From assembly GCA_016866775.1 (NCBI GenBank), contig VGLJ01000008.1:1-64000 (forward strand): a DNA stretch of 64,000 nucleotides, read 5' to 3'. Shown piece by piece: positions 24,582-27,487 of the stretch. This stretch comes from Candidatus Rokuibacteriota bacterium (GTDB lineage Bacteria; Methylomirabilota; Methylomirabilia; Rokubacteriales; CSP1-6). Numbering within the stretch: position 1 is the stretch's first letter; every line of letters begins with the position of its first letter. The notes beneath the pieces were generated by a model. The model ran no database searches and was not told the DNA's origin. It was given only the letters and a program-made list of their open reading frames with translations. A program made the position numbers and the translations under genes.

Positions 24582-27487
24582 ACGATCAGCTCGACCCCTA
24601 TCGGGCGAAGCGCGATCCGAAGCGCACGCCGGAGCCATTCGGCACTCGCGGAGGGCGCGGATTCATTCCGCGCCCGGAGCGTGGGGGGCTTGGGGGGCCG
24701 CCTCTGGCGGCCCCCCATCTCTTCGTCATCCAAAAGCATGCCGCCAGAAGGCTCCATTACGACGTCCGGCTCGAGATCGGCGGCACGCTGAAGAGCTGGG
24801 CGGTCCCGAAGGGGCCGTCGGTGCGCCACGGCGAGCGGCGTCTCGCCGTGCACGTCGAAGACCATCCCGTCGAGTACGCCGACTTCGAAGGCGTGATCCC
24901 GCGTGGCAACTACGGCGCGGGCGAGGTGATCGTCTGGGACCGCGGCTGGTATCGATCCGCGAAACCCGAGGCGCTCGAGACGCAGCTCGCGCGCGGACGG
25001 CTGGAGATCGAGCTCTACGGCGTGAAGCTGCGCGGCCGGTTCAGCCTCGTGCGAACCACGAAGGGCCGCGACTGGCTCATGCTGAAGAACGAGGACCCGT
25101 GGGCCGGGGGCAACGAGCCGACGGAGCGCTTTCCGGAATCCATTCTCTCCGGGCTCACGGTCGAAGAGCTGCGCGAGGGGCCGACGCGTGTCGCACGCCT
25201 GCGCGCGCGGCTCACGGCCGTCGGCGCGCCGGTCCGTCGGGTCGTCGCCGCGGAGCAGCCGGTCATGCTCGCGACCCTCGCGGCCGAGCCCTTCTCGCGC
25301 CCGGGCTGGCTGTTCGAGCTGAAGTACGACGGCGTGCGGGTGCTGGCCGAGCGCGACGGCGGCGCCGTCGAGCTCTACGGCCGCGCGGGCCAGCGGTTCA
25401 CGCCGCGCTATCCGGAAGTCGTCGCGGCGCTGCGCACGGTGCCGCTCGAGCGCTTCGTGCTCGACGGCGAAGTCGTCGCGCTGGACGAACGCGGGCGGCC
25501 GAGCTTCCAGCGCCTGCAGACGCGCATGCATCTCGCGCGCGGCCCGGACATCGAGGCCGTGCGCGGCGCGACGCCGGTCACCGCCGTGTTCTTCGACGCG
25601 CTCGCGCTCGACGGGCGCGATCTCCGCGGCCTGCCGCTCGAGACGCGGAAGGCCTGCCTCGCGCTCCTCCTGCCCGCGCGCGGCGTGGTGCACTACGGCG
25701 AGCACGTCGTCGAGCAGGGCGAAGCGTTCTATGACGCGTGCTCCGAGCAGCGCGTGGAAGGCATCGTCGCGAAGCGCGCGAACAGTCGCTACACCGGCGG
25801 GCGCTCGAACGACTGGATCAAGATCAAGTGCCACCTGCGCCAGGAGTTCGTCATCGGCGGGCTCACCGCGCCGCAGGGCACGCGCTCGCGGTTCGGCGCG
25901 CTCCACGTCGGTGTCTACGACGGCGACGCGCTGAGATACGTCGGCCGCGTCGGCACCGGGTTCGACGACGCGTCGCTCGACGCCATCTGGCGCCGCCTGC
26001 AGCCGCTTCGCCGCGCGACCTCACCGTTCACGCGCGGGACGCCGACCGGGCGCGGACACACGTGGGTCGAGCCGGCGCTGGTGTGCGAGGTGCGCTTCAC
26101 GGAGTGGACTCTCGACGGCGGCTTTCGTCACCCGACGTTCCTCGGGCTGCGCGATGACAAGCCGCCTCTCGAGTGTCGGCGCGAAGTCGTGGCGGAGGAG
26201 GAGGGGCGACGGGGACGCGGGGTGCCCCCGCCCTCCTCTGACCCCCGACCCGCCGACGCACGGTCTGACGGTCGTCATTTCCATCGCCGGGCGGCGGCCG
26301 CTTCTGGCCGAGGAAAGGGAACGGGTCACCCGGAGGGCGGGGGCACCCCGCGTCCCCGTCGCCCCTCCTCCTCCGCCGCGGCTTCAGACGACACGCGAGT
26401 TGGGACGTTCGATCGCGCAGGCCGAAGACGGCCGCGCGGCAGCAGAGACATTGGTGAGTCCACTCCCGACGAAGTCGGGCTCAGCAACGTCGTCAGGCTC
26501 AGCAACGTCGACAAAGTGTTTTGGCCGGACGAAAAGTTCACCAAAGGGGATGTGCTCGCCTACTACGACACCGTGACGCCGCTGCTGCTTCCCTACTTAC
26601 GGGATCGGCCGCTTGTTTTGACCAGGTATCCTGACGGGATTTCGGGGAAATCGTTCTATCAGAAGGATGCGCCGCATTTTGCGCCCCCTTGGATTCGGAC
26701 CGCGCGGATCGCCGCGCCCGACGCGGGACGCGAGATCGATTACCTCGTCGTCGACGATCGCCTGAGCCTGCGCTACGTGATCAACCTCGGCGTCATTCCG
26801 CTCCATCTGTGGGGATCGCGCGTGCCGTCGCTCGACACGCCGGACTGGCTCATCCTCGATCTCGATCCCAAAGGCGCGCCGTTCGGTCACGTCGTGCGCG
26901 TCGCGCGCGCGCTGCGGGAGATCCTCGACGACCTCGAGGTCCCCGCGTACGCGAAGACCTCCGGCGCGACGGGGTTGCACATCCTCGTTCCGCTGGGCGC
27001 GCGCTATTCATGGGAGGAGTGCCGGACGTTCGCGCGGCTGCTCGCGACGCTCGGCGTGGAGGCCGAGCCCGCGATCTCGACGATGACCCGCCAGATCCGC
27101 GAGCGCGAGGGAAAGGTCTACATCGACTGGCTGCAGAACGTCCGGGGTCAGACGATCGCGGCGCCGTTCTCGGTGCGGCCGCTGCCGGGCGCGCCGGTCT
27201 CGTGTCCGCTTCGATGGGACGAGGTGACGGCGCGGCTCGATCCGCGCGCGTTCACGATCGCGACGGTGCCGAAGCGCTTCGCGAAGCTGCGCGATCCGAT
27301 GGCGCCTGTGCTGCGAGACGGCGTGGACATCGCGGCGGTGCTCGGCCGCCTCGGGCGTCAGCGCGCGGCGACGGCCGGACGCGGCCCCGGCGGACGCGGC
27401 CCCGGCGCTAACCGGGGCTCGTCAGGTCAGCGCTCGCAGGGCGCGAACGCGGAGAGGCTCTTCGCGAAGCCGTACTCGCGGCTCTGA
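24578..27487 (+). CDS. ligD: multifunctional NHEJ DNA ligase LigD (PE-Lig-Pol order) with two in-frame repeat insertions
   Basis: FVIQKHAARRLHYDVRLE (PE), ELKYDGVRVLAE (ligase), KVFWPDEKFTKGDVLAYY...DRPLVLTRYPDGISGKSFYQKDAP (polymerase). Confidence 0.95.
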   Translation: MNDQLDPYRAKRDPKRTPEPFGTRGGRGFIPRPERGGLGGPPLAAPHLFVIQKHAARRLHYDVRLEIGGTLKSWAVPKGPSVRHGERRLAVHVEDHPVEYADFEGVIPRGNYGAGEVIVWDRGWYRSAKPEALETQLARGRLEIELYGVKLRGRFSLVRTTKGRDWLMLKNEDPWAGGNEPTERFPESILSGLTVEELREGPTRVARLRARLTAVGAPVRRVVAAEQPVMLATLAAEPFSRPGWLFELKYDGVRVLAERDGGAVELYGRAGQRFTPRYPEVVAALRTVPLERFVLDGEVVALDERGRPSFQRLQTRMHLARGPDIEAVRGATPVTAVFFDALALDGRDLRGLPLETRKACLALLLPARGVVHYGEHVVEQGEAFYDACSEQRVEGIVAKRANSRYTGGRSNDWIKIKCHLRQEFVIGGLTAPQGTRSRFGALHVGVYDGDALRYVGRVGTGFDDASLDAIWRRLQPLRRATSPFTRGTPTGRGHTWVEPALVCEVRFTEWTLDGGFRHPTFLGLRDDKPPLECRREVVAEEEGRRGRGVPPPSSDPRPADARSDGRHFHRRAAAASGRGKGTGHPEGGGTPRPRRPSSSAAASDDTRVGTFDRAGRRRPRGSRDIGESTPDEVGLSNVVRLSNVDKVFWPDEKFTKGDVLAYYDTVTPLLLPYLRDRPLVLTRYPDGISGKSFYQKDAPHFAPPWIRTARIAAPDAGREIDYLVVDDRLSLRYVINLGVIPLHLWGSRVPSLDTPDWLILDLDPKGAPFGHVVRVARALREILDDLEVPAYAKTSGATGLHILVPLGARYSWEECRTFARLLATLGVEAEPAISTMTRQIREREGKVYIDWLQNVRGQTIAAPFSVRPLPGAPVSCPLRWDEVTARLDPRAFTIATVPKRFAKLRDPMAPVLRDGVDIAAVLGRLGRQRAATAGRGPGGRGPGANRGSSGQRSQGANAERLFAKPYSRL
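24642..24718. repeat. palindromic repeat element C, in frame in ligD N-terminal linker
   Basis: GCACTCGCGGAG-[GGGCGCGGA-N5-TCCGCGCCC]-GGAGCGTGGGGGGCTT-[GGGGGGCCGCC-TCT-GGCGGCCCCCC]. Confidence 0.9.
26191..26377. repeat. palindromic element D with perfect 46-bp arms, in frame in ligD Lig-Pol linker
   Basis: 26191-26236 GGCGGAGGAGGAGGGGCGACGGGGACGCGGGGTGCCCCCGCCCTCC is the exact reverse complement of 26332-26377. Confidence 0.95.
26479..26510 (+). repeat. 18-bp-period tandem duplication GCTCAGCAACGTCG in ligD linker
   Basis: two copies of the 14-mer at 26479 and 26497 (encodes GLSNV-VRLSNV). Confidence 0.85.
27377..27406 (+). repeat. 15-bp tandem duplication near ligD 3' end
   Basis: GGACGCGGCCCCGGC x2. 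Confidence 0.9.

Follow-up and report, generated by a model that had tools for sequence, protein, structure and literature searches.

A dispersed REP-like double-hairpin repeat lies in frame in ligD of a Rokubacteria genome

The ligD gene in the window (the whole stretch of 64,000 nucleotides analysed) carries a full copy of a dispersed double-hairpin element in its reading frame. The element represents a new REP-like repeat family and is not a REP. The first-pass annotation had described the hairpins of the ligD copy; the analysis adds that both hairpins form a single unit of ~80 bp, which recurs ~150 times in the genome and chiefly adjoins the 3′ ends of genes. It is probably a non-coding dispersed repeat that has multiplied to this number, with a few copies lying in frame in tolerant linkers.

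The host gene (24578..27487, + strand; ORF and Pfam) encodes a LigD of 969 aa with phosphoesterase, ligase and polymerase domains. The copy within it occupies 24640..24721 on the + strand, as judged by the covariance model match (93.8 bits, E 2.0e-12) and the family alignment. Hairpin 1 (24647..24681, + strand) consists of an outer CGC/GCG pairing, a symmetric GGA/GGA internal loop and a 9-bp stem. The stem was assigned from the fold and from covariation, and its arms, GGGCGCGGA and TCCGCGCCC (24653-24661/24667-24675), are exact complements around the loop TTCAT (24662-24666). Hairpin 2 with its upstream G-tract spans 24683..24717 (+ strand): GGGGGG at 24683-24688 is followed by CTT and by 12-bp arms, TGGGGGGCCGCC and GGCGGCCCCCCA (24691-24702/24706-24717), again exactly complementary. 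The element strand folds at -66 kcal/mol vs -47.5 kcal/mol for shuffles (z -4.9), and none of 200 shuffles was as good. The two hairpins originally reported in ligD were thus real, and the reported extent, 24642-24718, located the element correctly with ends slightly short of the family consensus, which gives about 24640-24721.

The element contributes 26 codons (24641..24718, + strand), corresponding to LigD residues 22-47 (GTRGGRGFIPRPERGGLGGPPLAAPH) by translation and ortholog alignment. The Pfam LigD_N domain begins at residue 52 in the same frame as the element-encoded linker, and the conserved LigD motif YRAKRDPKRTPEPFG upstream of the element also shares the frame of the insert. The element is therefore read in the LigD frame, as had been proposed.

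LigD sequences of relatives were compared at the site of the insert. Twenty-five residues separate FG and LFV in this protein vs 8 in 27 of 29 relatives from the same family, and the element is absent from all 29, which upholds the earlier suggestion of an in-frame palindromic insertion at a short linker. A homologous linker conserved in unrelated lineages was not found: under a looser definition the linker has 28 residues here vs 11-13 in 31 of 33 LigDs of varied phyla, the two other relatives having 18 and 27. The best PDB match, 2lj6, is also shorter at this site. A clean insertion with a target-site duplication, also envisaged at first, was not seen. The net gain in ligD is 17 codons though the element has 26, and no short direct repeat was seen in the flanks of this copy. 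The 25 residues here against 8 in relatives thus indicate that some of the original linker has been lost. Judging from the variable linker and its conserved flanks, the LigD insert is most likely a neutral passenger and not a new domain.

The same gene had been said to host two distinct elements, and it does. The second, at 26190-26400, is an imperfect inverted pair and belongs to a separate low-copy repeat family. Apart from the matches to itself and between its two halves, five partial matches were found, spread over four further contigs of this genome: the halves recur partially on C86 (there too as an inverted pair), C53, C6 and C72. Two genes away from ligD, at 22217-23098 on the - strand, lies a gene that looks Ku-like from its sequence, so that the insert is located in an apparent end-joining gene cluster.

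Copies of the double-hairpin element were searched for throughout the 5.13 Mb genome, which is 97.5% complete. A covariance model built from 40 copies detected at least 149 (E <= 0.01), all spanning model positions 1-79; this count is a lower bound. BLAST found 40 places matching most of the element at 85-97% identity, together with short matches. A 23-base pattern for hairpin 1 had 102 matches in the genome and its reversed control had 0. Nearly all of the pattern matches fell at the covariance-model places, and hairpin 1 was almost never seen without hairpin 2; the two hairpins thus travel together. With at least 149 copies and 102 pattern matches vs 0, the element is not a product of chance. 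The same numbers dispose of the idea that the ligD insert is just a low-complexity linker in rapid evolution, with hairpins that arise from its high GC content. The composition is indeed GC-rich and the linker does vary in the two relatives with 18 and 27 residues, but the ligD copy matches at least 148 other places over its whole length, non-stem bases included, and the reversed pattern matches nowhere. Such a linker is extremely improbable here and is refuted by the copy number.

The consensus reads CGGCASTCGC, GGA, stem-TTCAY-stem, GGA, GCG, T/C, GGGGGG, CTT, GGGGGG, a variable inner stem, CCCCCC and ATSTC. Across the 40 copies G6-NNT-G6 and C6 are nearly invariant. The two G6 runs (GGGGGGCTTGGGGGG) can compete for the single C6 run, and the first is conserved though hairpin 2 does not need it. 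The pair cells of the hairpin-1 stem are 98% paired, and two-sided compensatory change was observed in 7 of its 9 pairs. These changes total 34, more than in any shuffle (7.3 +/- 2.0) or any slid control (4-11). Pairing in hairpin 1 is maintained, either by selection or by correction of one arm against the other during copying.

The siting of the element was analysed for 113 copies with flanks, the better-matching ones of the at least 149. Genes were called with a home-made codon-usage caller, which recovered ligD and its neighbours when checked on the window. A gene 3′ end lies within 5 bp of 61% of these copies and within 20 bp of 86%; of randomly placed windows, 8% overlapped a gene 3′ end, 10% came within 10 bp of one and 14% came within 30 bp. 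The element is depleted between divergent genes (3 of 89 vs 50 of 326, p 0.002). Where the gap is tandem (n=39), copies adjoin the upstream stop (median distance 4 bp) and stand off from the downstream start (32 bp; Wilcoxon p 1.6e-6). Eighteen of the 113 copies supply the stop codon of the neighbouring gene from the hairpin-1 loop: these genes, on the opposite strand, end at element position 22-23, where the reverse strand of the loop reads TGA. A hemerythrin-like gene (20984-21403; Pfam Hemerythrin) takes its C-terminal tail and its TAG stop from a second family copy in the window (21325..21402, + strand).

The conserved tail and the 3′-end bias could also reflect an RNA function. The element would then be mainly a functional 3′-end RNA element (a terminator, an attenuator or an mRNA-stabilising hairpin pair) kept by selection, with the in-gene copies as rare strays. 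Strong 3′-end placement, depletion from divergent gaps and compensatory stem changes agree with this, and REPs show the same placement (PMC3733652). Copies of the element, however, occur in both orientations, and in tandem gaps their orientation to the adjoining gene is about even (21 opposite, 18 same). A T-run is absent after hairpin 2, so that the element is not a canonical intrinsic terminator. At a density of ~1 copy per 34 kb most genes do without it, and an Rfam search over window positions 20000-28000 gave no family at the gathering score and one chance-level match. An RNA element of this kind is accordingly considered a somewhat unlikely explanation.

Seven of the 113 sampled copies (~6%) lie inside coding sequence in the same frame. 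Coding score alone gave many false in-gene candidates where genes adjoin, and only same-frame cases were retained. Besides ligD, the host genes are htpG (L039), larC (L093) and the genes for a cytosine-deaminase-like amidohydrolase (L011), a GcvT-like protein (L040), an acyl-CoA synthetase (L079) and a flavoprotein (L098). LigD, HtpG and LarC were the three cases checked against relatives of the same family. HtpG is 19 aa longer than both relatives found (n=2), neither of which has the element; LarC is longer by about 20 to 25 aa than 19 relatives, none with the element. All three insert sites are short variable linkers, and three reading frames are used (TRGG.. in LigD, AAAEG.. in HtpG, HSRRAR.. 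in LarC). The gain in ligD and htpG is smaller than the element length, from which roughly 21-27 bp of host linker are missing. All three forward frames are open in 94 of the 113 copies. Translation through the element would be easily tolerated, since it is GC-rich and most copies have no stop in any forward frame; htpG and larC suggest as much for conserved genes.

The element was compared with known repeat systems. GTAG/CGTC REPs are hairpin repeats with compensatory stem variation, found mainly between convergent or tandem genes; they adjoin gene 3′ ends and stop codons, sometimes supply the stop codon, and are occasionally intragenic, repair genes included (PMC3733652). The present element resembles them (PMC3733652) in being dispersed in many copies that mostly adjoin the 3′ ends of genes, in supplying stop codons and in lying within some genes. 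It differs in its consensus ends, CGGCA.. and ..ATGTC, neither of which has the GTAG or CGTC tag. The 3′ TGTC is similar to a variant of CGTC, but on this reading of the REP definition it is placed on the opposite side of the hairpin. In contrast to the small single palindrome of 20-40 bp in REPs, it is an indivisible unit of ~80 bp with two unlike hairpins, and the stop codons that it supplies lie mostly in a loop rather than in a tagged terminus. A REPIN joins two copies of one REP in inverted orientation and is linked to a RAYT (PMC3116915). Two hairpin-related blocks replicating as one unit of similar length recall a REPIN (PMC3116915), but hairpins 1 and 2 are different sequences in direct order. 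The element is called REP-like and not REP because it was tested for the tag, the small size, the inverted pair and the transposase and has none of them.

Palindromic repeats inserted in frame in conserved protein-coding genes are also known from Rickettsia: the RPEs, of 105-150 bp, are described as single long stem-loops with terminal inverted repeats (PMC2229807, PMC10969869). The in-frame copies in conserved genes (LigD, HtpG and LarC, each compared with relatives) are like these Rickettsia palindromic elements. Unlike an RPE, the element has two separate hairpins and non-complementary ends with no terminal inverted repeat, uses three different forward frames, is intragenic in ~6% of sampled copies and belongs to an unrelated phylum. 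Flank profiles of 105 and 98 copies likewise revealed no terminal inverted repeat. It is unlike a MITE in lacking such a repeat and in showing no target-site duplication at the ligD copy; empty sites are known at the level of the family only.

A mobilising enzyme was sought in this genome and its relatives. Y1_Tnp (PF01797) had 0 matches in this 97.5% complete genome, while control genomes gave matches; the genome is thus without the RAYT on which mobilised REPs and REPINs depend. Mobilisation by a RAYT (Y1 tyrosine transposase) since lost from the genome would fit the hairpins, 3′-end siting, occasional intragenic copies and stop supply, all of which match GTAG REPs (PMC3733652), and some family genomes do carry Y1 transposases. 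Across the genera of the family, however, no positive association of the element with Y1 transposase was found. The two coincide in one genus only (g10), where the element match is partial. With consensus ends free of either tag and a unit of two unlike hairpins in place of an inverted REP pair, a lost RAYT is judged improbable, and a Y1/RAYT mobiliser is not supported. For CGTC REPs, too, the transposase is not known (PMC3733652). An autonomous version of the element was also looked for: the genes between or beside four close copy pairs are ordinary enzymes (RecQ, glycosyltransferase, DNA glycosylase, ferredoxin oxidoreductase subunits), with no transposase among them.

Diverged forms of the element are present in ~10 genera of the same family, the source genus included, and none was found in the genomes searched from other families of the class. 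An exact-pattern scan of a genome-contig collection, which may omit near relatives of the source genome, also found no element. The closest named LigD matches come from Candidatus Rokubacteria/Rokuibacteriota and Methylomirabilota. In three relatives (L050, L054 and L056) the element forms tandem arrays with a unit of 102-103 bp; this unit includes a conserved spacer of ~25 bp (CAGAGCCCGTGAACGAATCGCCTGG in L056) that is absent from the copies of this genome. The 3.8-kb contig L264 (G045:C95), which is binned in another genus, has at 2679-2758 a copy of the subtype found in this genome (87 bits) and also carries a gene 88% identical to this genome. L264 is possibly a mis-binned contig of a close relative, or a transfer. 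When it was examined for an empty site, the sequences flanking the copy matched different contigs of this genome.

For the dispersed, non-coding repeat favoured here, the following course may be envisaged. The unit would not be autonomous: an enzyme acting in trans would move or copy it, in a way that depends on the hairpins, and it would insert at many places. Selection would then keep mainly the copies adjoining stop codons and a few in-frame copies in tolerant linkers. In at least three conserved genes, ligD, htpG and larC, a copy takes the place of part of a short variable linker in frame, and it would be translated as a linker rich in Gly, Pro, Arg and Ala. More tentatively, a Rokubacteria REP-like family may have spread without Y1/RAYT, replacing linkers and serving as a recurrent source of in-frame linkers and C-terminal tails. 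Rickettsia provides the best-documented cases of palindromic sequence inserted in frame into conserved proteins. That an uncultured, GC-rich lineage far removed from it behaves likewise, with another element and in the absence of a RAYT, suggests that repeats give rise to protein linkers and tails more generally, and a defined family of ~150 copies offers a test of how RAYT-less REPs spread.
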